Positions 11,551-28,284 of a DNA stretch of 48,769 nt are shown here, piece after piece. Source of the DNA: Helicobacteraceae bacterium. GTDB taxonomy: Bacteria > Campylobacterota > Campylobacteria > Campylobacterales > SZUA-545. The translations under genes were made by a program, and so were the position numbers. Position 1 is the stretch's first letter. Every line of letters starts with the position of its first letter. The DNA lies in assembly GCA_031258155.1 (NCBI GenBank), contig JAIRNH010000001.1, forward strand, positions 1 to 48,769, written 5' to 3'. Under the pieces are notes generated by a model, which did no database searches, was not told where the DNA came from, and saw only the letters and a program-made list of their open reading frames with translations.

Positions 11551-13014
11551 TTAATAACCGCCGGCGACGATTAGATCGTTCAAAGAGCCTAGTAGCGGCT
11601 CGATCCAGAAAAACGACGTAACGACCATTACGGCGGCTACTCCAAGCACGATCTTCAACGGAACCGCGCCGTTTTGATAATAAACCGTGCCGTCGTTATC
11701 CGACGGATCGCGCAAAAACATATAGACGATTAACTTTAGGTAGTAATAGACGGCGATCGCGCTATTGACCAACATAATAAGAGCGAGATAGAGATGATCG
11801 CTCGCTATCGCCTCGCCAATCAAATAGATTTTGCCGAAAAAGAGCGCAAACGGCGGAATACCGGCGAGCGAAAGCATAAAGATCGCCATAATCACGGCGC
11901 CCATAGGGCTAAGTTTTATCATGCCAGAAAACTTGCCGTAGGGGTGATCGAAACGAATATCCCACGTTTTGCTTGGGTGGCGCGAAATCCACAGCATAGC
12001 GAACGCGCCTAAATTGGTAAATAAAAATAAAACCCAATAAAGAAACAAGCCCGCGTGCGCCTCGCTGGAACCCATCACGAAAGCGCACATAACAAATCCG
12101 GCGTGGCTAATCGAGCTAAAGGCGAGCATTCGCTTAACGTCGTCTTGCATAAGCGCCAAAAGATTGCCTATCGTCAGCGTGGCGACGGCGACTATATACA
12201 AAAGCGCATAAACCGCGCGATCCGGACTTTGCGCTAAAAAATCAAAGAGCCTGATCGCCACGGCAAAACCGGCGATCTTAGGCGCTATAGACATATAGCC
12301 CGCCATAGGCGCGCTAGAACCCTCGTAAACGTCCGGCGTCCATGTGTGGAACGGCACGATAGAGAGCTTGAAGCCAAGCCCCGCGATAATAAACGCCGAA
12401 GCCGCCACGATCAAAGAGGTATGCTCGAAGCCGCTTGTTACTAACGCGCTTTGAATCTTGCCTATCTCTAAACTGCCCGTCGCGGCGTAAAGCAGCATTA
12501 CTCCAAAGATCAGCAGCCCCGCCGCGAGCGCGCCCATCGTAAAGTATTTAAGCGCCGCCTCCAACGCCTTGTCGCGGCGGTGCATGCTGATAAGCGTATA
12601 GAGCGCCAAAGAGCCGGTCTCGAGACCTATAACGATCACGATTAAATTATCGCTAGAAACCATAGCCGCAAAACCCGCCGCCATAAATAAAAACAGCGCG
12701 TAAAACTCGGCGAACTGATACTCCAAAAACCGCATTCCCGTGAAAGCTAACGGCATAAACAGTAGCGACGCGCCGATAATCACCCATAAAGAGGCTTTGG
12801 CAAGCCCGTCGATCAAGAGCGCGTCGAATAAACTCCGCTCGACAAAATCAAGGTAAAAAAGCGCCGCGATCGCCATAAGCAGCGCGGCAATCGTAATCGT
12901 GGCGAACGCGTTGCGTCCCGCGTTTTTGAAAAACAGATCGACGCTTAAAACGACGATCCCGCCGACGGCTAGAATCAAGATCGGCAGCAAAGAAACAAAA
13001 GAAAACGAACTCAT
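11551..13014 (-). CDS. nuoN: NADH-quinone oxidoreductase subunit N
   Basis: NuoN is one of three antiporter-like membrane subunits that carry the proton channels of complex I. The 487-residue, strongly hydrophobic product matches family length. Typical features include the conserved Glu in VIVIGLETGSLALYTL, a Lys-containing helix (GLGFKLSIVPFHTWTPDVYEG) and the DDVKRMLAFSSISHAGF motif. The nuoM stop overlaps its ATG by four bases (ATGA), indicating translational coupling. It is the last gene of the operon. Confidence 0.96.
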   Translation of the reverse strand: MSSFSFVSLLPILILAVGGIVVLSVDLFFKNAGRNAFATITIAALLMAIAALFYLDFVERSLFDALLIDGLAKASLWVIIGASLLFMPLAFTGMRFLEYQFAEFYALFLFMAAGFAAMVSSDNLIVIVIGLETGSLALYTLISMHRRDKALEAALKYFTMGALAAGLLIFGVMLLYAATGSLEIGKIQSALVTSGFEHTSLIVAASAFIIAGLGFKLSIVPFHTWTPDVYEGSSAPMAGYMSIAPKIAGFAVAIRLFDFLAQSPDRAVYALLYIVAVATLTIGNLLALMQDDVKRMLAFSSISHAGFVMCAFVMGSSEAHAGLFLYWVLFLFTNLGAFAMLWISRHPSKTWDIRFDHPYGKFSGMIKLSPMGAVIMAIFMLSLAGIPPFALFFGKIYLIGEAIASDHLYLALIMLVNSAIAVYYYLKLIVYMFLRDPSDNDGTVYYQNGAVPLKIVLGVAAVMVVTSFFWIEPLLGSLNDLIVAGGY

Positions 13015-14573
13015 TGCCCGCCTCCAAACATCGGCGAATTCAGGCTTTCTAGCCTCTGCCTAGTAGCGTCCTCGTTGGGAACCGACTTTATCGCCATCAT
13101 TTGCGCTAAATATATCGAGGCTTTATCGATCGGCGCTAAAACAGGCTTGGGATACACCCCTAGCCAAACGACGACCAACACAAGCGGAATAAGCGCCGCA
13201 AGCTCGCGTCTATTGAGATCGGTTAGCGTTTTGTTCGCCTCTATCGTAACCGCGCCGTAGAAGGTTTTGCGATAGAGATTAAGCATATAGACCGCGCCGA
13301 GAATAATCGACGTTCCCGCTAACAAAGCCATAATCGGGCTTGCGCGGAAGTAACCGAGCAGAGACAAAAACTCGCCCACAAAACCCATCGTCAGCGGCAA
13401 TCCCGCCGAAGCCATCGCCATAAACATAAAGATCGCCGCGTAGATCGGCATAACGGAGGCGATCCCGCCAAACTCGCTTAACTGCTTTGTGTGGCGGCGA
13501 TCGTAGATTACGCCCACCAGCATAAACAGAGCGCCGCTGATAATCCCGTGGCTAAGCATAAAGAAAACCGAGCCGCCGATACCCTCCGCGTTCAGAGCGA
13601 ACGTCCCTAGAATAATCACGCCCATATGGCTGATCGAGCTATAGGCGATAATCTGTTTTATATCCTTCTGCGCGAACGCCACCATCGCCGCGTAGATAAC
13701 CATAATAATCCCGATCGCGCCCATAAACGGCGCGAAATAGACGCTCGCGTCCGGAAAGAGCGGCAGGCTAAAACGCACAAAACCGTATGTCCCCATTTTG
13801 AGCAGCACGGCGGCAAGCAAGATCGAGCCGATTGTGGGCGCCTGTCCGTGCGCGTATGGAAGCCACGTATGAAAAGGAAACATAGGAACTTTTACCGCGA
13901 AGCCGATCCCCATCGCCGCAAAGAGCCAGAGTTGCGCCGAATAGGCGATCGGGTGTCTATGCCATTGAATAATATCAAAGGTGGCGTATCCCATATCCTG
14001 ATAGAAAAGCCACGCGAAATACAGTATGCCAAGCAGAAGTAAAAGCGAGCCGCTAAAGGTGTAGATAAAGAACTTCACCGCCGCGTAGATTCTATTGCCG
14101 CTGCCCCACGCGCCGATAATATAGAGCATAGGCGCCAGCGAAAACTCCCAAAAGAAATAAAACACGATCGCGTCAAGCGCCGCGAAAACGCCGATCATCG
14201 TCATCTCTAACATCAAAATCGAGGCGACAAGGTTTTTAAGCCGCTCCGTTTCGCCAAGCGCGATCAGCGCAATCAGCGTAATAAAGGCGCTAAGTATGAT
14301 TAAAAACAGCGAAAAGCCGTCCACGCCTACTTTATAGCTAATACCCAACGATTCGATAACGGGCAGCGAATAGACAAACTGCATGCCTAAGCTGTCGTTT
14401 GTGAATTTGTAGTCGTAATCGAACAGATACCACAGATAGAGCGAGAGCGCAAACTCGATCGCGGCGATTACCAGCGCGTAAATCCTAACGCGATCTTTAG
14501 GAATCGCAAAGCCGACTAACGCGCCCAATAACGGAAAAAACACTAAAATCGAAAGCAAATAAGAGGACATCAC
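13011..14573 (-). CDS. nuoM: NADH-quinone oxidoreductase subunit M
   Basis: This is an antiporter-like proton-pumping subunit of complex I. The 520-residue polytopic protein is close to the usual 500-510. Visible motifs are the channel Glu in ILMLEMTMIGVFAALD, the broken-helix Lys motif FAVKVPMFPFHTWLPYAHGQ and DIKQIIAYSSISHMGVI. It overlaps nuoL (upstream) and nuoN (downstream) by four bases each. The order L-M-N is standard. Confidence 0.97.
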   Translation of the reverse strand: MMSSYLLSILVFFPLLGALVGFAIPKDRVRIYALVIAAIEFALSLYLWYLFDYDYKFTNDSLGMQFVYSLPVIESLGISYKVGVDGFSLFLIILSAFITLIALIALGETERLKNLVASILMLEMTMIGVFAALDAIVFYFFWEFSLAPMLYIIGAWGSGNRIYAAVKFFIYTFSGSLLLLLGILYFAWLFYQDMGYATFDIIQWHRHPIAYSAQLWLFAAMGIGFAVKVPMFPFHTWLPYAHGQAPTIGSILLAAVLLKMGTYGFVRFSLPLFPDASVYFAPFMGAIGIIMVIYAAMVAFAQKDIKQIIAYSSISHMGVIILGTFALNAEGIGGSVFFMLSHGIISGALFMLVGVIYDRRHTKQLSEFGGIASVMPIYAAIFMFMAMASAGLPLTMGFVGEFLSLLGYFRASPIMALLAGTSIILGAVYMLNLYRKTFYGAVTIEANKTLTDLNRRELAALIPLVLVVVWLGVYPKPVLAPIDKASIYLAQMMAIKSVPNEDATRQRLESLNSPMFGGGQ

Positions 14574-16465
14574 GCTCCTTTCATAGATACGCTAAGAGTC
14601 GTCGTCGCTAACGCGATAAGAGCGATCGCGAGCAGAGCGACAAGACCGCCGACCATCAACCTAAGCATATGCGAGAGATTGCCCGTCTGCGTCTTTCTAA
14701 GTTGCGCGCCGGACGCCATTGTAAGTTTGGCGATCAGATCAACCGCGAAATCCACGATTTTAAGATCGATCTTTTGCCATAGAAAATCGCCGATCTTCAT
14801 ATACGGCGCGATAATCGCTTTTTTATACAGCGTCGGTATATACCACTCGGCGCTCAAAAACTTATAGATCGGGTTATTTTGCCAATTTGGACTAAAGCCC
14901 CCTTTGGCGTATTTCCAGATGGCAAACGCTATGCTTAAGATAACCAGAGCGAGCGTTCCAGCGATCAGCGCGTATTCGATCGCGTGTTCCAAATGCGGCG
15001 CCTCCACGCTTAACATTTTAGAAACAAGATTCGTATAGCCCGTTTCAAAAAAACCGGCGATAATCGCCAGAATAGCCAACGGCGAAATGGCGATCAGCAT
15101 AAACGTCGGCGCCTCGTGCGGGTGAATATGCAGCTTTTCGTAGTTCGCCTCTTTGCCAAAAAATACGCTCATAACGACGCGGAAGCTATAGAACGCCGTC
15201 ATAACCGCCGTGATTAGCAGCGTAGCCCAAATAATAAAGTGCGAGCTTCCAAACGCTACCTCTAATATCTTATCTTTAGAGAAAAAGCCGGCGAAAGGGT
15301 ATATGCCCGCAAGCGCGATCGAGGCGATCGTCATCATAACCGCCGTCGGCTTCATCGCCGCCCACAACTTGCCCATTTTGCGGATATTAAGCTCGTCGCG
15401 CATGGCGTGCATTACATTGCCCGCGCCCAAGAACAACAGCGCTTTGAAAAAGGCGTGCGTCGTCAGGTGAAAGAGCGCCACCCAATAGTAGCCAAGCCCC
15501 GCCGCGACGAACATATAGCCAAGTTGAGAGAGCGTCGAATAGGCGATAATGCGCTTTAGATCGGTCGCGACAAGCGCCATCGACGCGGCGAAAAAGGCGA
15601 CGAACGCGCCAAGCGACGCGATAATAACGCTAACGTCGCTTACCGCGCTATAGAGCGCGTTAGCGCGCACCAGCAGATAAACGCCCGCCGTAACCATCGT
15701 CGCCGCGTGTATCAGCGCCGAAACGGGAGTGGGACCCTCCATAGCGTTGGCAAGCCACGTATGCAGAGGAAACTGCGCGGATTTGCCCATCGCGCCGATA
15801 AACAGCAAGATCGCGATCCAGATCAAAACTCCGCGCTCGATAAAAGGCAACGAAGCGAAAACCTCCTCGTAACGAAGCGATCCGATCTGCCAATAGATTA
15901 AGAAAATGCCAAGCAGCATTCCTAGATCGGCTATGCGGTTCATAATAAACGCCTCGTTCGCCGCCCACGAGGCAAACGGCTTGTGATACCAAAAGCCGAT
16001 CAGCAGATAGGAGCATAGCCCCACCCCCTCCCAGCCGATAAACAGCCCCAAGAAGTTATCGCTCATCACCAGAACCATCATCGAAAACACGAAGGCGCTT
16101 AGATAACTAAAGAAGCGGTTAAAGCTCTTGTCGTGCGCCATATAGCCGATTGAATAGATATGCACGATCGTGGAAACAATCGTAACGACGCACATCATCA
16201 CGACGCTGATCGCATCGACCACAAAACCAAACTTCAAGTTTAGCCGCCCCGATACAATCCAATCAAAAAGCGAGACGCTAACGCGAACGTCTTGCGTATA
16301 TACAAAATACAACAACGTCAGCGAAGCGCACAACGAGAGCGCCAACAGCGCGCTCGGCGCAAGCCCCGCGACGATCTTTTTCTCCTTCGCGCCAAAAAAC
16401 AGCCCCGCGAAAAGCGAGCCGACGAGCGGCGAAAACAACGCGATTAGCAGTAACGCTTCTTCCAT
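14570..16465 (-). CDS. nuoL: NADH-quinone oxidoreductase subunit L
   Basis: NuoL is the most distal antiporter-like subunit of complex I, with a long lateral helix. The 631-residue product shows FIGWEGVGLCSYLLIGFWY with the channel Glu, the signature GKSAQFPLHTWLANAMEGPT, and DLKRIIAYSTLSQLGYM. The C-terminal 130 residues hold the amphipathic lateral helix region and a final membrane anchor. nuoK ends 8 bases upstream of the nuoL start. Confidence 0.97.
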   Translation of the reverse strand: MEEALLLIALFSPLVGSLFAGLFFGAKEKKIVAGLAPSALLALSLCASLTLLYFVYTQDVRVSVSLFDWIVSGRLNLKFGFVVDAISVVMMCVVTIVSTIVHIYSIGYMAHDKSFNRFFSYLSAFVFSMMVLVMSDNFLGLFIGWEGVGLCSYLLIGFWYHKPFASWAANEAFIMNRIADLGMLLGIFLIYWQIGSLRYEEVFASLPFIERGVLIWIAILLFIGAMGKSAQFPLHTWLANAMEGPTPVSALIHAATMVTAGVYLLVRANALYSAVSDVSVIIASLGAFVAFFAASMALVATDLKRIIAYSTLSQLGYMFVAAGLGYYWVALFHLTTHAFFKALLFLGAGNVMHAMRDELNIRKMGKLWAAMKPTAVMMTIASIALAGIYPFAGFFSKDKILEVAFGSSHFIIWATLLITAVMTAFYSFRVVMSVFFGKEANYEKLHIHPHEAPTFMLIAISPLAILAIIAGFFETGYTNLVSKMLSVEAPHLEHAIEYALIAGTLALVILSIAFAIWKYAKGGFSPNWQNNPIYKFLSAEWYIPTLYKKAIIAPYMKIGDFLWQKIDLKIVDFAVDLIAKLTMASGAQLRKTQTGNLSHMLRLMVGGLVALLAIALIALATTTLSVSMKGA

Positions 16466-16472
16466 ATTGCCC

Positions 16473-16775
16473 CTATCCGTTCATATGCTTGATAACGTTG
16501 AGATCAAGCGTCCCTTTGCGTTTATACAGCAAGATTAAAAGCCCAAGCCCAACCGCCACTTCCGACGCGGTGATCGCGATAATAAAAAAGGCGAATATCT
16601 GCCCCTCTATCGTCCCCGTATAGCGCGAAATCGCCACTAAGCCGATATTAACGCTGTTTAATAAAATCTCGGTGGCAAAAAAGAGCGCCAGCAGATTTTG
16701 ACGGCGCATAACGCCGACTAGCCCGATCGCGAAAAGAATCGCGCTTAAAACGATATAGTGAGTTAGCGTGATCAT
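16473..16775 (-). CDS. nuoK: NADH-quinone oxidoreductase subunit K
   Basis: NuoK is a small three-helix membrane subunit of complex I that is part of the proton path near the quinone site. Exactly 100 residues, the common family size. The two conserved membrane glutamates lie in FFATEILLNSVNIG and in ITASEVAVGLGLLIL. Its start overlaps the nuoJ stop by four bases. Confidence 0.97.
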   Translation of the reverse strand: MITLTHYIVLSAILFAIGLVGVMRRQNLLALFFATEILLNSVNIGLVAISRYTGTIEGQIFAFFIIAITASEVAVGLGLLILLYKRKGTLDLNVIKHMNG

Positions 16776-17293
16776 TTTTTGCGCTCCTCCTCTTGCGAAT
16801 ACTCCATCTGCTTGCTCGCCAAAACGATACCCGCGATCATCGCCGTAAGCAATAACAGCCCCGAAAGCTCGAAAGGCAGAATATAGGTCGTAAATAGGCT
16901 TGTTCCGATCTCGTTTACGTTATCGCCGCTAACTAGCTCGCTATCGCGAGAGAGCGCGAAAGTCGGCGCGGCTATCATAGCTACGACAATCGCCGCGCAA
17001 GCCGCCGCCAGAAAAAATATCGTCTTTTGCGATCCGATCGCCTCGTTAAGCGGCTTAGTCGAATCAAAAAACATCATGCCAAAGACGTATAACGCCATCA
17101 CCGCGCCCGTATATACTACGATCTGAACTATGCCCATAAAATCCGCGCCCAGCATAAAGAAAAACGCGCCGATAAAGATCATACCCGCCGCCAGCGCCGT
17201 AAAGGCGTAGATCGTCCGTTGCGCCGTCGTTACGATCGTAAAGCAGACGATTGTCAGCGCCGCGAAAAAATAAAACGCTATAGCCTCGAACAT
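16772..17293 (-). CDS. nuoJ: NADH-quinone oxidoreductase subunit J
   Basis: NuoJ is a five-helix membrane subunit of complex I whose third helix undergoes the pi-bulge rotation that links quinone chemistry to pumping. The 173-residue product contains the conserved FMGIVQIVVYTGAVMALYVF region with its YTGA motif. It has a charged C terminus (SQEEERKK). It starts 8 bases after nuoI and overlaps nuoK. Confidence 0.96.
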   Translation of the reverse strand: MFEAIAFYFFAALTIVCFTIVTTAQRTIYAFTALAAGMIFIGAFFFMLGADFMGIVQIVVYTGAVMALYVFGMMFFDSTKPLNEAIGSQKTIFFLAAACAAIVVAMIAAPTFALSRDSELVSGDNVNEIGTSLFTTYILPFELSGLLLLTAMIAGIVLASKQMEYSQEEERKK

Positions 17294-17301
17294 CTTGCCT
17301 C

Positions 17302-17880
17302 CTAATACGCTAACGGCGTTTTCTTGAGATTTTCATCGGCGTTAGGACTGAGCGCGCCGAAACCCTCGAACTCTTTTTGTAGCTTGATCGCCTCTTGTTG
17401 CGTAAGCATATCGTCCTTGATCGAAAAATGCGCCCTCTGCTCGCTCGCGTTTTCAAACCGATCGCCATGTACGATCGCGAGCTCCGGACAAACCTCCGCG
17501 CACAAACCGCAGTAGATGCAGCGCCCGAAGTTGATCGTATAGTCAAACGCCTTTTTGCGCCCGTCCTCGCCCAAACCCGTATCCATTCTAATGCAATTTG
17601 AGGGGCATATCTTTTCGCACAGACCGCACCCGATGCAGCGCTCCGCGCCGCTTTCAAGCAGTCTAAGCAGCCTATGAACGGCGCGATAGCGTTTGGATAT
17701 GGGCAGTCTTTCTAGCGGATAGACCGTCGTATGCGTCGGGTCCTTAACCATTACCTTAAAGACTACCCACAACCCTTTAAGTAGCTCCAAGCCAAGACTG
17801 CGTCGAACGACTTGTTTAAATTTTTGCCAGCCGCTTTGCGGATAGGGCGGCAAAGATATGTCGAAATAACCCTGTTTCAT
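17302..17880 (-). CDS. nuoI: NADH-quinone oxidoreductase subunit I (two 4Fe-4S)
   Basis: NuoI carries clusters N6a and N6b and passes electrons to N2 in NuoB. The 192-residue product has two ferredoxin motifs, CIGCGLCEKICPSNCI and CIYCGLCAEVCPELAI, between an N-terminal amphipathic region and a charged tail. I chose ATG 17880 (MKQGYFDIS) over a longer frame reaching 18159. The extra N-terminal part would overlap nuoH and does not resemble NuoI, whereas ATG 17880 lies 9 bases beyond the nuoH stop. Confidence 0.96.
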   Translation of the reverse strand: MKQGYFDISLPPYPQSGWQKFKQVVRRSLGLELLKGLWVVFKVMVKDPTHTTVYPLERLPISKRYRAVHRLLRLLESGAERCIGCGLCEKICPSNCIRMDTGLGEDGRKKAFDYTINFGRCIYCGLCAEVCPELAIVHGDRFENASEQRAHFSIKDDMLTQQEAIKLQKEFEGFGALSPNADENLKKTPLAY

Positions 17881-17888
17881 CGTTGCTC

Positions 17889-18881
17889 CTACAAAATAAC
17901 CGCGGCGGTAATCAAAACGTTGATCACGGCAAGCGGCATTAAGACCTTCCAGCACAGCCACATTAGCTGATCGGGGCGAATATGAGGCCACGCGCCGCGA
18001 ACCAAGATAAAGAAAAAGAAGAAAAACGCCACCTTTAGAAGTAACGCGATCGCGCCCGGCACAATATAAAAATCGTTGTAACCGCCCAAGAAAATTAACG
18101 AAATCAAGAAGCTGATAATAAACATATTGGCGTATTCGCCGATGGCGAACAGACCCCAATGAATGCCCGAATACTCGGTGGCGTAACCCACCACGATCTC
18201 CGCTTCGTGTTCCAACAGATCGAAGGGGGTGCGGTTTGTCTCCGCGAAGCCCGCCATCATAAACAGCGCAAACGCCAGCGGTTGCTTAAAGATCATCCAG
18301 TCGAACAGCCCGCCCGCTTGATAATCGTTTAGATTGATTAGCGAGAGCGATCCGACCAGCAAAATGGGGCTTAGCAACGCGAGAATGCTTACGACCTCGT
18401 AGCTGATCAGTTGAATCGCCGTGCGCGCGCCGCCGATTAGCGAGTATTTATTAAACGACGCAATACCGCCCAACAGAGGACCGTATAGCCCGCTTGCCAT
18501 CACGCCAAGCACGAATAAAACGCCTACGTTTATGTCCGCCACAATCGGTTTGATCGTATGCCCAAACAGCTCGAAGGGCGGCGCGAACGGGACGGCGCTC
18601 ATAGCGATAAACGCGGTGGAGGCGGTGATGATCGGCGCGATAAAAAAGATCGGCTTGATCGCGCGGCTAGGAATGATATTCTCTTTCGTGAACATTTTAA
18701 TGCCGTCGGCTACGATCTGCAAAAGCCCAAGCGGACCTACGTGCATAGGACCCTTGCGCCGTTGCATAAACGCCAGCAGCCGCCGCTCGAAATAGGTACC
18801 GTATCCCGCAAGCGCGGAGAATATCAGCACGACTAAAATCGCCTTAACTATCGTCGCTACAATAGAAAATAGATCGTCCAT
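17889..18881 (-). CDS. nuoH: NADH-quinone oxidoreductase subunit H
   Basis: NuoH is the membrane subunit that forms the quinone chamber with NuoB and NuoD. The 330-residue protein shows the quinone-site motifs FERRLLAFMQRRKGPMHVGP, GLLQIVADGIKMFTKE and the acidic loop FAETNRTPFDLLEHEAEIV, followed by GYATEYSG. The start follows NuoG2 by two bases. It looks intact and canonical. Confidence 0.97.
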   Translation of the reverse strand: MDDLFSIVATIVKAILVVLIFSALAGYGTYFERRLLAFMQRRKGPMHVGPLGLLQIVADGIKMFTKENIIPSRAIKPIFFIAPIITASTAFIAMSAVPFAPPFELFGHTIKPIVADINVGVLFVLGVMASGLYGPLLGGIASFNKYSLIGGARTAIQLISYEVVSILALLSPILLVGSLSLINLNDYQAGGLFDWMIFKQPLAFALFMMAGFAETNRTPFDLLEHEAEIVVGYATEYSGIHWGLFAIGEYANMFIISFLISLIFLGGYNDFYIVPGAIALLLKVAFFFFFFILVRGAWPHIRPDQLMWLCWKVLMPLAVINVLITAAVIL

Positions 18882-18883
18882 CG

Positions 18884-21121
18884 TTACCCTTTAGTAATAC
18901 TCGCCAATTTGAAGCGCCAACCCGTAAGCGCGCCCTCGCAAACGCTAACAAAGGCAAATTCGCCTTGAATATACCCCTCTTTTTTGACTTCGAGCTCCAA
19001 AGAAACGCCGTCGATCGTTACCCTCGCCTTGTCGCCCTCCTTCAATCCATGCCTCTCTAAAAACGTATCGCTCGCCAAGAGTTTATCGCCGCTTGATAGA
19101 TGGGCGTTAAACTCGTCGATCGCGTTAGCTAGATAGACGATAGCGCCGTCTATTTTGAGCGGTTTTGGCTTCTCCAGCGCGTCGATCGACTCGATCTCGC
19201 TTGCCGTTAGCGTAAAACCGCGCCGCTCCTTGCCGTCCGCGCCAAACTCGTTTTCAAGCGAATCGAACGGCGCGCCCAATTCGCCCGTCAAATCCGTCGT
19301 CGTCTCTATAATCTCGCCGTCGTTTGCGATCGCGTTGTAAAGGTGGGCGAGCGTATAGCCTTCGTAGCCAAGCGCGGGATAGATCGCGACGACGCGCTTA
19401 TCGATATTTACGATCGTCCCCTCTTGCTGAACCAAGGCGGGCGTATCCAGCTCGTTTGCGCCTTGCGCGCCAAACGCGGTTAATACAAAATCGCCTTTGG
19501 CGTTGTAGCCTACCGCGTAGCCGTTCGCGCTTTCGTCCAGATCGGCGTTTAGCGCCGCGCCGAGATCGTTGCCCTTTAGCGGCGAGAGCAATACTTTGAA
19601 GGGCGAATACTTTTCCAATAGCCCCAGCATACGCGCTATGTTTTCCGATCGCGGATGGCAGAAGAGATCGCCGCCCGCGATAAGGGTAAAGCCGCTCCTG
19701 TTTTCGACTAATTTATCGATCTGTTCTAGCTCCGCCGCGTCAAATACCAAACCCTCGATCTTCGCCTTTAAGGTTTTGGGCAGTCGATCGGCGAAGCGGT
19801 TTAATAACTTCGCCAGCGCGATCTCCTCGCCGCCGACCTCGCCGCGCATAACAAGCATATTTTTGTGCATCGTATCGACGATCGGATCGCCGATCGGGTG
19901 AAAGTCGATCGCCGCGCCCTTTTTGACGACGAGCGCGTTGTTGATCGCGTAGCGAAGCTGCGGATTGTCGTTCGAGAGACGAACGCCGATCGAGACGGTA
20001 AAATCGCCGATCGTATCCTTCGAGCCGCTATAGAGCGTTTTACCGCTAACGGCGCTAAAGGTTTTAAGAAACTTAGAGAGCGCAAACGCGGAGTCGTTGA
20101 TCAGTTTTAGCCCTAAACGTTTTTTAAGCCGATTGAGGATCAAAATCTCCTCGTTGGTAATTAGCGAGCTAAAACGAACCGCTTTAGCCTTTTTCAGCGC
20201 CTCTAGCGCGCGCTCAAACGCCGCCTCGTCCTTTTTGACGCGCTTGTTAGCAAAGTCGTAACCAAAACGCCCCGCGCCGCATAAGCTCTGAAAGTGAAAG
20301 TCGTTGGTAACGCGGTAGATCGTATCGTCCGGCTCGTCTATGCCGCCCTGTTTAACCTCGTAGAACAGATGACACGCGCTAGGACAGTGAACGCACGAGG
20401 ACGGAACGCGCTTTAGCTCCCAAGCGTTGCTTTTATATTGAAACTCGCTCGTTACCATAGCGCCCGTAGGACAGACCGCCGCGCACTCGCCGCAATCGAC
20501 GCAGTTATCGCCTTTTGGCGAACGGGCGATCAGCGATTTGTTCATTCTGTTCCAGATCGTATATGCGTCTTTGGGCGCCGACTCCTTATACTTCTCGTCG
20601 ATCGCGTCGCCTCCGCGCGGAGTCGTAGCTAAAGCGCCTACGCCAATAATATCTTTGCATACGGTAACGCACCTTTCGCACGCTATGCACAGAGCGGGAT
20701 CGTAGCGAACGCGCCCCCACTCTACAGGCTTCTTATCCGTGTCCTTAATCGCGTAGCTTTGCGAGGCTACGCTCTGAAATAGGGCGTTATCTTGCAATTC
20801 GCACTCGCCCGATTTGTCGCATACGCCGCACTGAAGCGGGTGGTTGATCGCGTAAATCTCCATAATGGCGCGGCGATCGGCGCTAAGATCGTCGCCCTCC
20901 GTTTTAACGACCATTCCCTCTTTGACTTTCGCGTTGCACGAGTAGGCGCGCTTACCGTCGGCGTCCACCATGCAAAGCCTGCAGGCGAGCGTAGGCGAGC
21001 AGCGCGTCAAACAGCAGATCGCGGGGATATAGATATTATTCGCGCGAGCGACCGAAAGAATCGTGTCGCCTTCGTTAGCGACGATCTGGCGATCGTTTAT
21101 CGTTAATCTAATCTCGCCCAT
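18884..21121 (-). CDS. nuoG: Second NuoG-type iron-sulfur subunit of complex I
   Basis: A 745-residue molybdopterin-oxidoreductase-like subunit. It has an N-terminal 2Fe-2S domain (AICCLTRC, CRLCMVDADG), the His-coordinated cluster site HPLQCGVCDKSGECELQD, ferredoxin-type sites CIACERCVTVC and CVDCGECAAVCPTGAM, a SSCVHCPSACHL site at the start of the catalytic-like domain, and a beta-barrel end (LLASDTFLERHGLKEGDKA). It overlaps the preceding nuoG by 14 bases. Two NuoG paralogues in tandem occur in some Campylobacterota. Which one joins the electron path, or whether both do, cannot be told from sequence. Confidence 0.88.
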   Translation of the reverse strand: MGEIRLTINDRQIVANEGDTILSVARANNIYIPAICCLTRCSPTLACRLCMVDADGKRAYSCNAKVKEGMVVKTEGDDLSADRRAIMEIYAINHPLQCGVCDKSGECELQDNALFQSVASQSYAIKDTDKKPVEWGRVRYDPALCIACERCVTVCKDIIGVGALATTPRGGDAIDEKYKESAPKDAYTIWNRMNKSLIARSPKGDNCVDCGECAAVCPTGAMVTSEFQYKSNAWELKRVPSSCVHCPSACHLFYEVKQGGIDEPDDTIYRVTNDFHFQSLCGAGRFGYDFANKRVKKDEAAFERALEALKKAKAVRFSSLITNEEILILNRLKKRLGLKLINDSAFALSKFLKTFSAVSGKTLYSGSKDTIGDFTVSIGVRLSNDNPQLRYAINNALVVKKGAAIDFHPIGDPIVDTMHKNMLVMRGEVGGEEIALAKLLNRFADRLPKTLKAKIEGLVFDAAELEQIDKLVENRSGFTLIAGGDLFCHPRSENIARMLGLLEKYSPFKVLLSPLKGNDLGAALNADLDESANGYAVGYNAKGDFVLTAFGAQGANELDTPALVQQEGTIVNIDKRVVAIYPALGYEGYTLAHLYNAIANDGEIIETTTDLTGELGAPFDSLENEFGADGKERRGFTLTASEIESIDALEKPKPLKIDGAIVYLANAIDEFNAHLSSGDKLLASDTFLERHGLKEGDKARVTIDGVSLELEVKKEGYIQGEFAFVSVCEGALTGWRFKLASITKG

Positions 21122-23141
21122 TTAACTCGCCCTTTCGCGGATTGATAACCTCGTAACGGTATTGCACGTTCGCTTGAATTGTCGGCAAATCAAAGACCTC
21201 CAGCTTTGCTATTACGCCCTTCATCTTGGGCGAAACTATAAACTTCCTCGCAACGGCGCCTAACTTCGTTTCGATTTTAACATTATCGCCATTTTTTAAG
21301 CCGTTTGCCTCCGCGAACTGCTTAGAGCCTATCAACTCGCCTCGCTCCTTAAACGGCTTATAAACCGCGTCGTATCGCGCCACGGAGCCGTTATACTCCT
21401 CGAACGGCTCGATACCTTCGGGCGCGAAAACCGATATTTCGGTCTTTGGATTGTCTATCTCGTAGGGCGTCAGATCGTCAAATGCCGTATCGTTAAACGG
21501 CAACCAACCTGAAGCGTCGATTGTCCATTTAATTTTAAGCCCGCGCTCTTTGGCAAGGGCGCCCGCGCTAACGCCGTCGTATCCGATAGCGGCGTTCAAC
21601 GGTTTTATTACGCGGTCGATCGTAACGATCGTCCCCTCTTTCGCCTCGTTGGGCGCGATCGGAAAGACGTTTTCGCTTTCGCCGTTATGAATATCGCAGG
21701 TTAAAGCGATTCCGAGCGCGTTTGGCGTAGGCGGGATCATCAGAATATCAAACCCGTTCGATCTTAACGCTCCCGCGATTGCGGCGATATTTTCGGCTCT
21801 GCGGCAGGAGTATATCTCGCCGCCAAGAACGATAAGCGTCTTTTTGCCTATGTTAATCGCCTCTAGCTCCTCCTCGCCGACGTTTGTTTCGGCGCTTAAC
21901 GCGCCGTCGTCGAGGTCGTCTAACCATCGTTTCAATTCGCCGCTTGGCTCCTTAACGAGAGCTTTTAACAGCATAGCGAAAACCCCCTCCTCCGCGCCCG
22001 TCTCGTAGCGGATAAAACGCGCCGCTTTGGAGATCGTCTCGTCCTCGAACGGCGCGAAGGCGAAAATATCCGCGCCGCCGATCAACCCCGCCTTGATAAG
22101 CGCGGATTTGATAAAGGCGGATTCCGAACTTACGGCGGGAGCAAAAAGCAAGATCGTATCGCTCGCGGCTATATCGCCGACTTTGGCGTTCCAAAGCGTC
22201 TCGCCGCTCGCTTTGGCGTATGTCGTTAAAAACCGCTGAAAATCCGCGATCGCGTTATTGACGAGTTTATAGCCCATATCGTTAAGCAGATATATCTCTT
22301 CGTTGGTCTCGTCGCCGTTTATCCGAACGTTTTCGGCGCTCTTGTCGAACCCGCCGCTTGCGACGTTTCGCTTAAAGCCAAAGCGTCCTAAGGCGCATAA
22401 GAAGCCGTTTTCCGCGTCGGCGCTCACGCGCTTAACCTCGCCTCGCCTAGTTTCAATCGTCGCGTCGCAACCGAGGGAGCAGTATAGGCACGTCGAAGGG
22501 GTTTTGCTTAGCTCCCACGCGTTGGCGCGGTATTTGAAATCCTTCGTAACGATCGCGCCTACGGGACAGACCGCCGCGCACTCGCCGCAGTTTGAACAGC
22601 GATCGCCGTCAAATACGATTTTGGATTTATAGCCGCCAGCCTCGATAGACAGCGCCGTATCTCCCGCGATCTCGTTGCACGTCCTGACGCACCGCTCGCA
22701 CATCACGCACAGCGAAGGATCGTAGGTTAATATACCCCAATCCTCGATTGCGCGCGGGAGCTCTTTGGCGCTAAATATCTGCTCGCTCAAACCAAACTCC
22801 AGCGCCTTATCCTGCAACTCGCAATCGCCCGATTTGTCGCATACGCCGCACTGAAGCGGGTGATTTACGCATATCATCTGCATAATCCGTTTGCGCGTCT
22901 CAAAGAGCGCGGCGCTGTTTGTCGTTACCCTTATGCCCTCTTTAACCGGCGTTTGACAGGAGGCGACCGCGCCGTTTGCGCCCTCGATCTCCACGACGCA
23001 CAATCTGCACGAACCCGCCGCCGAAATCTTGCTTAAAAAACAGAGCGTAGGGATATACGCGCCGACGCTTCTTGCCGCCCGCAGGATCGTATCGCCCTCG
23101 CGCGCGCAAACTTGGCGATTGTCTATCGTTAAATTAACCAT
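21108..23141 (-). CDS. nuoG: First NuoG-type iron-sulfur subunit of complex I
   Basis: A 677-residue protein with the same plan as its downstream paralogue: the 2Fe-2S domain (TLCFLSKI, SCRLCVVEIEGA), HPLQCGVCDKSGDCELQD, CVMCERCVRTC, CSNCGECAAVCPVGAI and TCLYCSLGCDATI, then a diverged molybdopterin-type domain. It is shorter than the second copy and the two C-terminal halves differ strongly. The start overlaps the NuoF-like gene by 8 bases, and its end overlaps the second nuoG. All cluster-binding cysteines that I can locate are retained, so both copies may be functional. Confidence 0.9.
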   Translation of the reverse strand: MVNLTIDNRQVCAREGDTILRAARSVGAYIPTLCFLSKISAAGSCRLCVVEIEGANGAVASCQTPVKEGIRVTTNSAALFETRKRIMQMICVNHPLQCGVCDKSGDCELQDKALEFGLSEQIFSAKELPRAIEDWGILTYDPSLCVMCERCVRTCNEIAGDTALSIEAGGYKSKIVFDGDRCSNCGECAAVCPVGAIVTKDFKYRANAWELSKTPSTCLYCSLGCDATIETRRGEVKRVSADAENGFLCALGRFGFKRNVASGGFDKSAENVRINGDETNEEIYLLNDMGYKLVNNAIADFQRFLTTYAKASGETLWNAKVGDIAASDTILLFAPAVSSESAFIKSALIKAGLIGGADIFAFAPFEDETISKAARFIRYETGAEEGVFAMLLKALVKEPSGELKRWLDDLDDGALSAETNVGEEELEAINIGKKTLIVLGGEIYSCRRAENIAAIAGALRSNGFDILMIPPTPNALGIALTCDIHNGESENVFPIAPNEAKEGTIVTIDRVIKPLNAAIGYDGVSAGALAKERGLKIKWTIDASGWLPFNDTAFDDLTPYEIDNPKTEISVFAPEGIEPFEEYNGSVARYDAVYKPFKERGELIGSKQFAEANGLKNGDNVKIETKLGAVARKFIVSPKMKGVIAKLEVFDLPTIQANVQYRYEVINPRKGELNGRD

Positions 23142-25134
23142 TCAACGCCGCCAAAGCGATATAGTAACAGCGCATACACCGATCGGCTTCCTTAAACGCC
23201 GCGTCGTTCGTTAAACCGAAATTAACCTCGTCGTGGTTTCTCTTTCTAACTTGCGTCTCAAGTTTTCGCGCGGTCTGCCGCGCAAAACCGCCAAGATAGC
23301 CCGTAGGCTTCTCCTCTTTGTTAAACACGCGAAAGCCGCGCAACAGATCCTCCATCGTCTCGTCGTCGCTTCGCCTGATTTCGCCCGTCTTTAGGTAGTT
23401 TAGCATTACGTTCGCCGCGCGGCGCGCCTGCCCTACGGCATTTACAATCGTCATAGGTCCGTATTCGCAATCGCCCGCCGAAAACACGCCGCGTCGGTTT
23501 GTGGCGAAGGTTTTGCCGTCCGTTTTAATCGTCCCCCAGCTTGTCAGATCGATATTCCACTCTTTGGGCAGAAGGCTTAGATCAGGGTCTTGACTAACCG
23601 CTGGGATCACATAGTCGCACTCAAGCTCGAAATCTTGACCCTCTAGCTTAACTAACTGCTGGCGTGAGCCGCCCGCGCCGCCTTCAATCGCCTCGTAACG
23701 GTTGCACGCAACCTTTTTGATCGCGCCGTTTTCATCGATAATCCTAGCGATCGCGGCGCGAAAAATAAACTCCACGCCCTCCTCTAGCGCCTCTTTATAC
23801 TCCTCTTCGCTCGTGTTCCTAATAATCACTCGCTCGCTTCGGCGATAGAGCATGATAACGCGCTTCGCGCCCGCGCGCACGGCGCAACGCACCACGTCCA
23901 TCGAGGTAAAGCCGCCGCCCGCGCATACGACCGTCTTTCCCGTTAAATCGACGGGCGATCCGATTCTGAATTTCTCCCATAGATTTATCCGATCGAGAAA
24001 GCTAATCGCGCCCCAATAGCCCTTTACGGATTCGTTTTCGTTTTCGCAACGCAACTTTTTAGAAACTCTAGCGCCAAAGCTAAGCAAAATAGCGTCGTAG
24101 TTTTTTTCTAACTCAATCAGTTTTTCAACGTCGATCGGAGAGTTAAGATGTATCTTGGCGCCGCAGGAGGTCGCAAAGCGAATATCGCTTAGATATTTGG
24201 CGCTTGGCATTCGATACTCCGGCACGCCCGTCATCACCTCGCCTCCAGCTACGGGCAACGCTTCAAAAATATCGCATTCCACGCCGTTTAATCCAAGATA
24301 GTAACCGGCGGTAAGCCCCGCGGGACCGGCTCCCACGATCGCTACCTTTTTGCCGATCGGCGCTCGTTTTATCGCTACGCGATCGGATAGAGCGCGCTTA
24401 TCCTCGTAATCCGCGCCGATTCGTTTTAGCTCCATAATGCTTACGGACTCGTCAAAATGGCTTCGGCGGCAACTATCCTCGCACGGGTGCGGACAGACGC
24501 GAGCGCATACATGCGCAAGCGGCATCGCCTTGCGGGTCTCCTCTAAGCTCTTTAGCGGACGGCGATCTTTAAGCGCCTCGATATAGGCTGGAATATCCAC
24601 CCGATCGGGACAGGCGTCCGAACAGGGCGCGGTAACTTTGGCTACGATAGGCAGGGCGCTATCATACTCCGCGCTTTTTTCGCGCAAAACAACGCGCTCG
24701 TTAAACGCTTGCGGAAAATACTCGATCAATTGCAAGATCGCCTTTGGCGTGGTGCGCCCTATCTCGCATTTAGAGCTAGATTGCATAACTAAGCAGGCGG
24801 TTCTAAGCCGCTCAATATCCTCGTTTTCGCCCTCGCCTCTTGCGATCTTATCTAGCAGATCGTAGAGTATCCGCCCGCCAGCTCGTCCGGGCATGCACCG
24901 CCCGCACGCCTGAGCGTAGTTCTGATACTGCAGAGCGTATTCGCAAGCAAGACGCGCCACGTCCACGCCCTTGTCGAAGATCGCCACGCCGTCCCAACCG
25001 ATAAAGGCGCGCACGGCGCGATTGCCGTCGAAAACGTCCGGTAATTTTAACGCGCTTGAAACATACTCGTCGCTTGGCTTGCCGCGATTGTCGATTATCG
25101 CGCCGCGCCAAGAGCTAAACCACGGCTTAACCAT
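23134..25134 (-). CDS. NuoF-position subunit fused to a GltD-like FAD/NAD(P) module
   Basis: A 666-residue protein in the nuoF slot. Residues 1-150 resemble only the C-terminal Fe-S part of NuoF: Cys77 and Cys80 in ACGRCMPGRAGG and Cys123 in SSKCEIG. The position of the third Cys of the usual CxxCxxC is Gly83, so the N3-type cluster may be altered. The FMN/NADH-binding Rossmann domain of true NuoF is absent. Residues 165-650 resemble the glutamate synthase small subunit family: cysteines at PCSDACPDRVD and CARVCPHPCEDSC, FAD motif VAIVGAGPAGLTAGYYL, nucleotide motif CAGGGFTSMDVVRCA, and GVFSAGDC. A CMRCYY motif lies near the end. It probably feeds electrons from a reduced pyridine nucleotide (or another donor) into the complex. 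Confidence 0.8.
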   Translation of the reverse strand: MVKPWFSSWRGAIIDNRGKPSDEYVSSALKLPDVFDGNRAVRAFIGWDGVAIFDKGVDVARLACEYALQYQNYAQACGRCMPGRAGGRILYDLLDKIARGEGENEDIERLRTACLVMQSSSKCEIGRTTPKAILQLIEYFPQAFNERVVLREKSAEYDSALPIVAKVTAPCSDACPDRVDIPAYIEALKDRRPLKSLEETRKAMPLAHVCARVCPHPCEDSCRRSHFDESVSIMELKRIGADYEDKRALSDRVAIKRAPIGKKVAIVGAGPAGLTAGYYLGLNGVECDIFEALPVAGGEVMTGVPEYRMPSAKYLSDIRFATSCGAKIHLNSPIDVEKLIELEKNYDAILLSFGARVSKKLRCENENESVKGYWGAISFLDRINLWEKFRIGSPVDLTGKTVVCAGGGFTSMDVVRCAVRAGAKRVIMLYRRSERVIIRNTSEEEYKEALEEGVEFIFRAAIARIIDENGAIKKVACNRYEAIEGGAGGSRQQLVKLEGQDFELECDYVIPAVSQDPDLSLLPKEWNIDLTSWGTIKTDGKTFATNRRGVFSAGDCEYGPMTIVNAVGQARRAANVMLNYLKTGEIRRSDDETMEDLLRGFRVFNKEEKPTGYLGGFARQTARKLETQVRKRNHDEVNFGLTNDAAFKEADRCMRCYYIALAALNG

Positions 25135-25137
25135 ATA

Positions 25138-25371
25138 TCAAGCGTTTCTTTTTCTAATAGAGACCGTCCAATCGACCTCGTTATATTTAAGCGAGTTAAG
25201 CAATTCGCAATTTAGCTCTTTAACCGCGTCGGCGCTACTCTGAACAATAGAAAAATCTTTCGCCTCGAAAATAAAAAGCGCCGCCTCGTTTTGGGCTAAC
25301 TCGTCCGCGATAATTGTTTTCATTCTACCGATTGCCTCTTGTTTTAATTCGCGTAAATCAAATCGTTTCAT
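25138..25371 (-). CDS. Short NuoE-position subunit of Campylobacterota complex I
   Basis: A 77-residue soluble protein between nuoD and the NuoF-like gene, starting MKRFDLRELKQEAIGRM. It is far smaller than true NuoE (about 165 residues) and has no Cys to hold a 2Fe-2S cluster. Short proteins of about 75 residues in this slot are typical of Helicobacter (HP1264) and Campylobacter, whose complex I does not use the canonical NADH module. It presumably helps attach the unusual input subunit. The call rests mainly on position and size. Confidence 0.75.
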   Translation of the reverse strand: MKRFDLRELKQEAIGRMKTIIADELAQNEAALFIFEAKDFSIVQSSADAVKELNCELLNSLKYNEVDWTVSIRKRNA

Positions 25372-25380
25372 AATATAGTC

Positions 25381-26613
25381 CTATCTATCTATTTCGCCGA
25401 AAATAACGTTGGCGTTGCCGATAATAGTTACCGCGTCGGCGACTTGGTGTCCAATCAACAGGTCCTCTAACAGCCCGCAGTGAAAAAAACTAGGTCCTCT
25501 AACCTTAACGCGGCGCGGATACGGCTCGCCGTCGCTCACGATATAAAAGCCAAGCTCGCCCTTTGGCGATTCGGTGGCGACATAAACCTCGCCCTTTGGC
25601 GGACGCATGCCCTGCGTAATCAGCGCGAAGTGTTGCATAAGCGAGTAGTTTTGCGTCATAAGCTGTTCTTTGGGCGCGCTTATATATTCGGGCGCGTTTG
25701 CCATTAGTTCCGGCGGCGAGTCCTCGTATATTTTCAACGCCTGACGGATCAGTTTAATGGATTGCCACATCTCCTCGATATAGAGACGGTAGCGTCCGTA
25801 GCAGTCGCCTACGTCGGTTATAGGAACCTCGAAATCTACCTCTTTATATAGCTCGTAGGGGCGCTCCTTGCGAATATCCCACGCCACGCCGCTACCGCGC
25901 AGCATAACGCCGCTAAGCCCCCAGCTCATAGCCAGCTCTCTGCTTATCACGCCAATGTTCTCTAACCGCATGCGCCATATTCTGTTCTCTTTTAATAGCG
26001 CGTCGTAGATTTCGATCTGTTTGGGCATATGATCCAAAAACGCCTCGCACTGCTTGATCCATTCGGGCGTGAAATCCAGCGGAACGCCGCCGATTCTTAT
26101 AGAGTTGTGCGTAAGCCGCGCGCCGCAATACTCCTCGAATAGATCGAGCGCGTATTCGCGTTCGCGAAACGGATAGAGCATCATGCTCATCGCGCCCACG
26201 TCCAGCGCGTGCGTGGAGAGAAACAGCAGATGGCTACAGATTCTGCTAAGTTCGAGAAGCGCCAATCTGATCGCTTGAGCGCGGCGCGGCGCCTCTATGC
26301 CGAGCAATGTTTCTACGGCGAGCGCGAAACCGTAGTTATTGGACGTGGAGTTAATATAATCGATGCGATCGGTGGTAGGCAGAAACTCGTTATAGATCAT
26401 ATTTTCCGCCATCTTCTCCACGCCGCGGTGCAGAAAGCCTATATTTGGGCGCGATTTTGTTATCAGCTCGCCGTCAAGCTCTAGGATTAGATTCATCTGA
26501 CCGTGCGCCGAAGGGTGTTGCGGACCAAAGTTTAGGATCATCGTATTGTCGTCGCGCTCAAAGGCGATATTTTCATAAAAAGGCTGTAGGCGATTGGGTA
26601 GTTGCGTCGTCAT
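25381..26613 (-). CDS. nuoD: NADH-quinone oxidoreductase subunit D
   Basis: NuoD is the 49-kDa subunit that lines the quinone pocket. The 410-residue protein shows [22 protein letters not shown] with the quinone-site His, [29 protein letters not shown], and ends in the typical [31 protein letters not shown]. The N-terminal hydrogenase-like fold is intact. Start ATG and the nuoC stop share a base (TAATG). NuoC and NuoD are separate genes here, unlike in E. coli. Confidence 0.97.
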
Positions 26614-27410
26614 TATTTCCTCTTATCTAACACTTTTTGCTTTTGCGGATCGAAGTCGTCGTATAAAACAATCGAGCGTTTTTCCACATATTTGATCGGC
26701 GTAATCTCGTCTTTGGGCGCTTCGCCTACTCCAACCTCGTAGCCAAGCCGCGCGAAGTTGCGCGTATCGTTCCGATCGACTCTCGCGGGATCGCGGTTTT
26801 CCTCGCCGATCTTCTCTCTAAACTCCTTGCCGTATATCTTATCGACCTCGTACCACCGCGCAAACTCGTCGCCTTGAAGCGGATAGGAGCGCAAAAGCGG
26901 GTGTCCGTTCCAATCGTCGGGCATAAGAATACGGCTTAAACGCGGGTGGTTGTTGAATATAACGCCAAACATATCGTAGCACTCGCGTTCCGACCAGTTA
27001 GCCGATCGCCACATGTCCGCGACGCTCTCGATCGCCTCTTTTTCCTTAATAACGACCTTGAGCCGCAAACGGCGGTTTTTTACCGCGCTTAACAGCTCGT
27101 AAAACACTTCTAGCTCGCCGCGCGTCGCTAGATAGTCTATCGCGCTTAGCTCCATCAACTGCTCGTAACCGAGCGATCGCAGCAAAGCCAGAGCCTCTTT
27201 GTTTTTAGGCGCGGGAACATAAACTATCGCCTCGTTGCGCATAAAAAAACTTTTAGTATCGCCGATCGCGCGCTCTAGCTTTTCTAGATCGTCCTTGACG
27301 ATCTCGTCGGTTATCGGCTCTTGGGCTATCTCTTTAGGAACGTAGAATCGATCGGTATGGTAGGGCTTTTTCTGAACGTCGCCCTTTGGCGTATATGGTC
27401 TAAACATCAC
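26613..27410 (-). CDS. nuoC: NADH-quinone oxidoreductase subunit C
   Basis: NuoC is the 30-kDa subunit of the peripheral arm. The 265-residue product has the family signature in [42 protein letters not shown]. The N-terminal 60 residues are a lineage-typical extension. Its start overlaps the nuoB stop by four bases, consistent with coupled translation. Confidence 0.96.
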
Positions 27411-27916
27411 ACAAACCTTTTGGCGCTAATTTTGCGGTTCATCGGCTCGCTTCTGATCTTGCGCTGAAGCATCATCGCCGCATAGATAAGCGTATCGGGG
27501 CGCGGGGCGCAACCGGGGAGATAAATATCCACGGGGATAATGCGATCCACCCCCTGCACCGTAGCGTAGGTGTTGAACAAGCCGCCCGTATTGGCGCAAC
27601 TGCCCATCGAGATCACCCATTTTGGCTCCGCCATCTGATCGTATAATCGGCGCACAAACGGCGCGTGCTTTTTGCTCACCGTGCCGGCGATACACATCAC
27701 TTCCGCTTGGCGCGGCGAGGCGCGAAAGATCGTGCCAAGCCTGTCGAAATCAAAACGACCGCCGCCCGAAGCCATCATCTCGATCGCGCAACAAGCCAAG
27801 CCGTAGGTCAAAAACCACAGCGAATTGCTCCGCCCCCAATTTACCAGCTTATCCACCGTCGTCAGCGCGATCGGCAATCCTCCGCTCGACAGATAATCTA
27901 TTTGATGCTTTGCCAA
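27407..27916 (-). CDS. nuoB: NADH-quinone oxidoreductase subunit B
   Basis: NuoB holds the terminal cluster N2 next to quinone. The product is 169 residues from TTG 27916, preceded by AGGAG with a 7-base spacer and overlapping the end of nuoA by 19 bases. The four ligand cysteines are visible: tandem Cys in [11 protein letters not shown], one in [10 protein letters not shown] and one in [10 protein letters not shown] longer frame reaching 28042 lies wholly inside nuoA, and its extra residues look unlike NuoB, so I reject it. Confidence 0.96.
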
Positions 27917-28284
27917 TTTAGCGCTCCTTTCTTCCACTCGTAAAGAAACCCTACCGCCAAAATCCCCAAAAATATCAGCATGCCGCCGAAAGCCAGCGCG
28001 CCGTTGCCGCTCGCTATTAGGCTCTTGTAAGCCGCAGCCCACGGCGCCATAAATATAATCTCCACGTCAAACAGAATAAACAGCAGCGCAAAGAGAAAAA
28101 ACCGCGCGCTTATTCGGTTGGGCTGAAGCGAGGTTTCAGGTCCGCACTCGAACGGGGAGAGCTTCAGTTTCAGATCGTCTCTTGCCGATCTGGCGTTAAA
28201 CAGCCAAGCCGAAAGCGCAACCGTCGCCGAAAACGCTCCAAACGTAAGGATAAATAGAAAAAAAACTCCGAAATACGATTCCAA
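27898..28284 (-). CDS. nuoA: NADH-quinone oxidoreductase subunit A
   Basis: NuoA is a three-helix membrane subunit of complex I. The 128-residue product contains FECGPE in the loop and the [12 protein letters not shown] motif of the second helix, both family hallmarks. It is the first gene of the operon, starting at TTG 28284 with AAGGAG 8 bases upstream. The hsrA-like gene is transcribed divergently from the same 147-bp intergenic region. Confidence 0.96.

Follow-up and report, generated by a model that had tools for sequence, protein, structure and literature searches.

A NuoF stub fused to a GltD-like module in the complex I operon of Campylobacterota: a candidate NADPH input arm

Introduction

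The pairing of GltD, a flavoprotein related to the small subunit of glutamate synthase, with domains of the NuoG or NuoF type is already known from the Stn and NfnABC transhydrogenases, from SfrAB, and from composite hydrogenases (PMC7483475, PMC3543383, PMC9888536; these and the other papers named below are cited for the passages available to us). Stn oxidises reduced nicotinamide adenine dinucleotide phosphate (NADPH) far faster than the unphosphorylated form (NADH), and recombinant StnC binds flavin adenine dinucleotide (FAD) and oxidises NADPH (PMC7483475). In Campylobacter jejuni, complex I reportedly receives electrons from flavodoxin via Cj1574c (PMC4178425), and HP1264 of Helicobacter pylori is reported to bind flavin mononucleotide (FMN), as judged by nuclear magnetic resonance and fluorescence, a property reported for HP1264 only (review PMC6269979). 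Here we describe an open reading frame (ORF) in the nuo (complex I) operon of a Helicobacteraceae bacterium in which a remnant of NuoF is fused to a GltD-like module. The stretch of DNA analysed, called the window below, comprises 48,769 nucleotides (assembly GCA_031258155.1, contig JAIRNH010000001.1, positions 1 to 48,769).

The fusion probably serves as the entry point for electrons in a complex I fed by NADPH and not by NADH, carrying them from NADPH to quinone or in reverse. No description or characterisation of such a fusion within complex I was found in the literature searched, and our claim of novelty is limited to the available passages of that literature. Within it, four points appear to be new: GltD as a candidate input arm of complex I, the spread of the fusion in Campylobacterota, the apparently fixed loss of a ligand at the N3 iron-sulfur (Fe-S) site, and the probable NuoG1 origin of the short protein that fills the same slot in Campylobacter-type operons.

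Results

Domain make-up of the fusion

The fusion ORF is housed in a full nuo operon. On one side lies an ORF of 77 amino acids in the NuoE slot, with nuoD beyond it, and on the other lie two tandem nuoG genes, here called NuoG1 and NuoG2. The reading of the operon and the comparison of clusters described below both place the fusion in the nuoE-F-G slot. Residues 33-148 match positions 297-410 of the 410 in profile TIGR01959, PF10589 matches at 74-146, and the AlphaFold2 (AF2) model of this part has strands at 34-52 and helices at 59-139. PF14691 matches at 168-247 and PF07992, above its cut-off, at 262-570, and the best NCBIfam model spans 152-656. A domain profile search gave no match to the FMN/NADH-binding 51K domain (PF01512) anywhere in the 666 residues. 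A preliminary description of the locus, made from the sequence alone, had proposed a NuoF Fe-S remnant joined to a GltD-like FAD and nucleotide module without the FMN/NADH domain, and these matches bear it out.

The sole PF01512 protein found in the same genome is encoded by a HoxF-type gene on another contig, beside hydrogenase-type ORFs. The genes there form a HoxF-HoxU-HoxY-HoxH-like set (contig C67, L147:572-4895; names by sequence reading) and are read as a NAD-linked [NiFe]-hydrogenase, whose HoxF-like protein retains the normal N3 motif CGKCVPCR.

A permuted GltD-like module

The GltD family is recognised by a double Rossmann fold for FAD and NAD(P)H, which is found here (PF07992; Z above 28 to NfnB, GltD and DPD), together with the cysteines for two predicted [4Fe-4S] clusters in permuted order. 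The FAD motif occupies residues 268-273, the second Rossmann motif GGGFTSMD residues 406-413, and YRR residues 430-432. The RCxxC segment, which lies at the N terminus of ordinary GltD and NfnB, has been relocated to the C terminus by circular permutation, because a profile of residues 622-666 matches residues 16-51, directly before the GltD core, in all seven ordinary GltDs of the phylum (nine stretches were taken, seven of which had an ORF carrying the filter motif). The E values of these seven matches ran from 0.00018 to 0.13, and the best among 350 shuffled sequences was 0.49. In phmmer searches of the PDB, fusion residues 625-656 align to the N-terminal residues 11-42 of NfnB (4ylf, which we take to be from T. 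maritima), and the C-terminal residues align to 18-45 of P. furiosus NfnI (5jca); each alignment is weak alone. The same searches found the order with RCxxC at the C terminus in StnC and the NfnABC large subunits as well. The NfnABC and StnABC large subunits are also the closest solved folds of the AF2 model (Z 37.7-39.9 over 455-462 residues), which is good over the GltD part; the fold search barely probed residues 1-165.

Counting the RCxxC now at the C terminus, the cysteines for the clusters are retained in the module, and so are the FAD motif and the paired arginines. None of the 36 aligned fusions deviates at any of the eight module cysteines (171, 175, 210, 214, 218, 222, 653, and 656), at the FAD glycines, or at Arg308, Tyr430-Arg431-Arg432, and Asp555.

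The altered N3 site

Fusions aligned in two sets (23/23 and 36/36) have invariant Cys77, Cys80, Gly83, and Cys123, so that the four-cysteine N3 ligand set is replaced by three cysteines and a glycine, as the preliminary description had noted for the third cysteine of CxxCxxC. Among 80 named loci scanned for motifs, 75 had an ORF with RVCPHPCE; CGRC was present in 74 of these, each time with glycine at the third position (74/74), and was not seen in the remaining one (L117, 554 amino acids, with a late start). A sequencing error at Gly83 is ruled out by this recurrence in aligned and scanned ORFs. Another conserved cysteine of the NuoF part as a substitute ligand is ruled out as well, the invariant cysteines there being 77, 80, and 123 only. 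Judged from these alignments, Gly83 is a fixed feature of the clade. Loss of the third cysteine is a trait of the Campylobacterota proteins seen, since a Collinsella relative of the same domain order retains it.

Spread of the fusion

A match at E ≤ 1e-160 was found in 81 of 298 genomes sampled from Campylobacterota, which rules out a local oddity or an assembly artefact. Of these matches, 65 ran from residue 6 or earlier to 661 or later, eight began at 30-41, seven covered about 158-664 only, and one began at 258. Five of the seven were inspected (L032, L033, L039, L054, and L055), and in all five a NuoF stub lies upstream with an insert between. In some Helicobacter-family fusions this insert is long (about 200-300 amino acids) and poorly conserved (L032:2857-5643, L039:2885-5773, L054:8918-11593). 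The list of relatives comprises at least 80 loci. Among the matches listed, the named carriers are Sulfurimonas, Sulfurovum, Nitratifractor, Nitratiruptor, Hydrogenimonas, Sulfuricurvum, and Helicobacter, and the nearest are Helicobacteraceae-labelled metagenome-assembled genomes at 80% and 65% identity. The idea that the fusion might simply be the common, already characterised NuoF of the clade therefore holds for its being common; nothing in the literature searched supports its being characterised. The fusion type is wider than the phylum, because the Collinsella protein has the same domain order.

Some Campylobacterota seem to be without this complex I. In genera g12 (family f3), g8 (f6), and g14 and g22 (f2), a NuoD relative is mostly either divergent (E about 1e-85) or lacking.

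Two types of operon and the origin of the short slot protein

Comparison of 33 clusters from 33 genomes, picked to span families, revealed two arrangements. In type A (21 clusters), the order is NuoE slot, fusion, NuoG1, and NuoG2, and the fusion occupies the nuoE/F/G slot in all 21. In type B (12 clusters), the NuoE slot is followed by a protein of 245-294 amino acids and a single NuoG that matches NuoG2, with two exceptions: one cluster has one chain of 351 amino acids (L050), and another has no slot protein, the NuoE-slot and NuoG genes overlapping directly (L047, 10542-13168). The fusion is always accompanied by NuoG1 (21/21), and the 12 fusion-free clusters all have one NuoG. In the last eight clusters (L139-L146), NuoG1 was called by score (422-513 bits versus 225-287 in type B) and not gene by gene.

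The NuoGs differ in their ligands. Those of N1b and N5 are retained in 10/10 NuoG1 and 19/19 NuoG2, two further four-cysteine motifs in 9-10 of 10 and 19/19, respectively, and an N7-type four-cysteine set in NuoG1 only (10/10); N1b, N5, and N7 are what we take to be the names of these sites. The protein in the NuoE slot is a member of the HP1264 family (PF16514, E 9.9e-30; PDB 2LXR, HP1264 of H. pylori, E 3.1e-18 over residues 1-75) and not a thioredoxin-like NuoE.

A remnant of NuoG1 is retained in 11 of the 12 type-B clusters. When nine type-B slot proteins were compared by profile-profile search, the match to NuoG1 had a probability of 100 (E 1.5e-54, NuoG1 residues 350-750) and that to NuoG2 a probability of 99.5 (E 6e-23). 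In a tree of C-terminal halves, all ten slot proteins used group with NuoG1, and those of the Helicobacter family group with Helicobacter-family NuoG1 (support 0.916). Two other origins were rejected: a relic of NuoF (probability 0.8% against the NuoF stub versus 100% against NuoG1) and a derivative of NuoG2 (the branch separating NuoG2 has a support of 1.000). Such C-terminal NuoG halves, with motifs like YEVGSEEGV and LDxGYxSAES, are found in Campylobacter-, Helicobacter-, and Arcobacter-type clusters (L048:12017-12763, minus strand; L042-L046; L049-L053). By these comparisons, the short Campylobacter/Helicobacter-type slot protein is an orphan C-terminal half of NuoG1 and not a NuoF relic. 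The contrast that had been drawn with Helicobacter and Campylobacter stands in that others do have a short slot protein. It fails in that some Helicobacter-labelled genomes carry the fusion (L134, L135) and in the apparent descent of the slot protein from NuoG1.

Type A to type B is the simple reading of the direction of change, because part of NuoG1 is what remains in type B, and the Campylobacter and Helicobacter versions look like later, arm-less forms. On a NuoD/H/K/I tree, type B is split into seven or more clades whichever of the rootings tried is used, and a reversible count gives six changes. The deep nodes are weak (support 12-64 at several), and the figure of seven losses belongs to this topology. 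On it, about seven joint losses of the fusion and of the NuoG1 Fe-S half would have taken place, with transfer between lineages possible. In one genome (G208), type-B nuo clusters occur twice, each on a contig of its own (L148, L149); the other sampled fusion-positive genomes of its family are type A.

Flavodoxin genes

Of the 81 type-A genomes, 45 encode a long-chain flavodoxin (TIGR01752, matches down to E about 1e-39, with two weaker matches left out), as do 147 of the 158 type-B genomes (Fisher p 2e-11, shared ancestry ignored); a genome was assigned to type B here by a strong NuoD match without a match to the fusion, and not by inspection of its cluster. The count omits 55 genomes without a strong NuoD match, one genome outside the NuoD sample (G297), and three genomes of unclear type (G208, G245, and G274), the first of which proved to be type B when its clusters were inspected. 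The higher share in type B fits the report of a flavodoxin-fed complex I in C. jejuni (PMC4178425). The flavodoxin gene in the window's own genome weighs against a strict split between fusion and flavodoxin.

Other features of the window

Coordinates are collected in Table 1. Elsewhere in the window, a unit of about 28 residues (VKAFIxLYPQSIHRAEAEKKYxxLAKTI) is repeated within an ORF of 578 amino acids (9299-11035, minus strand), and an ORF of 305 amino acids (29598-30515, plus strand) consists mostly of tetratricopeptide-like repeats.

Table 1. Positions of the fusion, its parts, and neighbouring nuo genes in the window
Feature	Position	Strand	Basis or remark
NuoF-slot fusion: NuoF C-terminal part and circularly permuted GltD-like module	23134..25134	-	666 aa
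NuoF-derived part, residues 33-148: strand-rich stretch and helical 4Fe-4S bundle, Cys77/Cys80/Cys123	24691..25038	-	TIGR01959, PF10589, AF2
Gly83 codon, in place of third cluster Cys	24886..24888	-	Gly in 36/36 aligned fusions; Cys in Collinsella relative
GltD-like core, residues 165-600, Cys171/175/210/214/218/222	23335..24642	-	Domain matches, alignments, fold matches
Permuted cluster segment, residues 622-656, ending RCMRC (Cys653, Cys656)	23167..23271	-	Profile against ordinary GltDs; 4ylf, 5jca
NuoE-slot protein, 77 aa, HP1264 family (PF16514)	25138..25371	-	PF16514, PDB 2LXR
NuoG1, 677 aa, full Fe-S ligand set including N7-type four Cys, tied to fusion	21108..23141	-	
NuoG2, 745 aa, the NuoG also found in clusters without fusion	18884..21121	-	NF006305, 860 bits
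nuoD	25381..26613	-	
nuoC	26613..27410	-	Query in cluster comparison
nuoB	27407..28042	-	Query in cluster comparison
nuoA	27898..28284	-	Query in cluster comparison
nuoH	17889..18881	-	Query in cluster comparison
nuoI	17302..17880	-	Start inferred from relatives; listed ORF starts further upstream, at 18159
nuoJ, nuoK, nuoL, nuoM, nuoN	11551..17293	-	M and N named by sequence reading and NuoL match to such ORFs in relatives

Discussion

The sequence gives good support to the earlier suggestion that the electron donor is a different one: the NADH/FMN domain is absent, and the module for FAD and NAD(P)H is intact, cluster cysteines included. If the fusion is the NADPH-using input subunit, hydride would pass from NADPH to the FAD of the GltD-like module, and single electrons would leave through its two [4Fe-4S] clusters, including the one that involves the C-terminal RCxxC cysteines. 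They would next cross the altered N3-like site (three cysteines and Gly83), enter NuoG1 by its Fe-S chain, and run via NuoG2 and NuoI to quinone. In autotrophs the path could run in reverse, and NADPH would be made. In Campylobacter/Helicobacter-type clusters the arm would have been lost and the C-terminal NuoG1 half alone would stay. Several points weigh against this proposal. The N3 site is one ligand short, and Lys237 (36/36) stands where the second GltD cluster has a Glu/Gln ligand (position by alignment reading). The predicted local distance difference test (pLDDT) score of the AF2 model, which was built without cofactors, falls below 50 exactly at the cluster segments (168-191, 654-657). 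The arginine pairs, of which that in Tyr430-Arg431-Arg432 presumably points to NADPH, suggest NADPH over NADH without proving it. The window's own genome and 44 other fusion-bearing genomes of 81 encode a long-chain flavodoxin, so that a flavodoxin donor is possible.

One could consider that the fusion and NuoG1 make up an independent, soluble enzyme that oxidises NADPH, as SfrAB of Geobacter does, and that is merely encoded in the nuo operon without docking on complex I. The GltD-like SfrB and NuoG-like SfrA are the same pair as the fusion and NuoG1 (PMC7483475), the two genes are gained or lost as a pair across clusters, and two full NuoGs are difficult to fit in one standard complex I. However, the genes occupy the nuoE/F/G slot in all 21 fusion-bearing clusters compared, and we regard this arrangement as unlikely, if worth keeping in mind. 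NuoG1 probably docks on complex I, because its C-terminal half persists beside the single NuoG in type B and because Cj1574c, the C. jejuni equivalent by position, is reported to serve complex I (PMC4178425). A similarly doubtful alternative is that electrons really come from flavodoxin or ferredoxin, on the C. jejuni pattern, and that the GltD module links the complex to NADP(H) as a ferredoxin/flavodoxin:NADP:quinone hub. The FMN-binding type of protein in the NuoE slot and the flavodoxin genes of fusion genomes would suit such a hub, and NfnB, itself of the GltD family, exchanges with ferredoxin (PMC8097209, PMC7483475); yet the flavodoxin is missing from 36 of 81 fusion genomes versus 11 of 158 type-B genomes (ancestry ignored), as if it were needed more where there is no fusion. 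That the GltD module is degenerate or structural, a fold without redox work, is very improbable. The missing N3 ligand in all members seen would fit, but every other cofactor residue checked is invariant, and the GltD part is conserved like the rest (mean identity to the window protein of 60% versus 57% for the NuoF part, in 36 aligned fusions).

The preliminary description had also raised bifurcation-like chemistry, for which no positive evidence was obtained: Arg308 shares its position with Arg201 of P. furiosus SudA in a phmmer alignment only, and no second electron branch was seen; bifurcating enzymes of the Nfn/Stn type have two such branches from one flavin, and a tuning arginine. DPD, which is non-bifurcating, also has an arginine at the Arg308 position. 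Arg201 of SudA is the residue named in PMC7483475. A more far-reaching idea, speculative and quite unlikely in our judgement, is that the older Campylobacterota complex I was a two-NuoG flavin-bifurcating enzyme. NADPH would reduce the GltD FAD, one electron would pass through NuoG1 and NuoG2 to menaquinone with proton pumping, and the other would pass to a low-potential carrier (flavodoxin or ferredoxin), perhaps via the FMN protein of the NuoE slot. What Campylobacter and Helicobacter have, a complex I driven by flavodoxin, would then be the remainder after repeated loss of the arm.

The significance of the NADPH-input proposal is that it offers a concrete candidate for the feeder of complex I in a large bacterial group without the NADH subunit, among them hydrothermal-vent bacteria that oxidise sulfur or hydrogen. 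An origin is also offered for the unusual complex I of Campylobacter and Helicobacter, which is driven by flavodoxin: the slot protein there looks like what is left of a second NuoG and not like an eroded NuoF.

Comparison with known systems

Canonical NuoEF shares with the fusion the C-terminal 4Fe-4S bundle of NuoF; unlike it, the fusion and its NuoE-slot protein have no FMN/NADH domain and no thioredoxin-like NuoE, and are one N3 ligand short. The flavodoxin-driven complex I of C. jejuni (Cj1574c/Cj1575c) has the same operon as the window, with the same NuoE-slot family in Campylobacter-type clusters and a single NuoG that matches NuoG2. It has no fusion, and the slot protein in such clusters is apparently the C-terminal half of NuoG1 (L048; equivalence to Cj1574c by position). 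The NuoF-bundle::GltD protein of Collinsella aerofaciens (L137, WP_195568673.1) has PF10589, PF14691, PF07992, and a C-terminal RCxRC in the same order. It differs in keeping the third cysteine (CGKCTPCR), in lacking most of the stretch before the bundle, and in having a [FeFe]-hydrogenase gene adjacent, and from this gene order such modules may feed NuoG-like partners elsewhere too. SfrB is similar in length to the fusion. Like the fusion and NuoG1, SfrAB, the NADPH oxidoreductase of Geobacter, is a GltD-like/NuoG-like pair and oxidises NADPH, but the available passages of PMC7483475 do not describe it as part of complex I. The best fold matches, which are also among the best sequence matches, are the Stn/NfnABC transhydrogenases (PDB 8oh5, 9bov, 9n5u), in which a permuted-type GltD ending in RCxxC likewise occurs with NuoG- and NuoF-type domains. 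These enzymes are soluble and bifurcating; their GltD lies within a NuoG-like chain, and their NuoF-like subunit is complete, whereas the fusion carries its GltD on a NuoF stub in a complex I operon.

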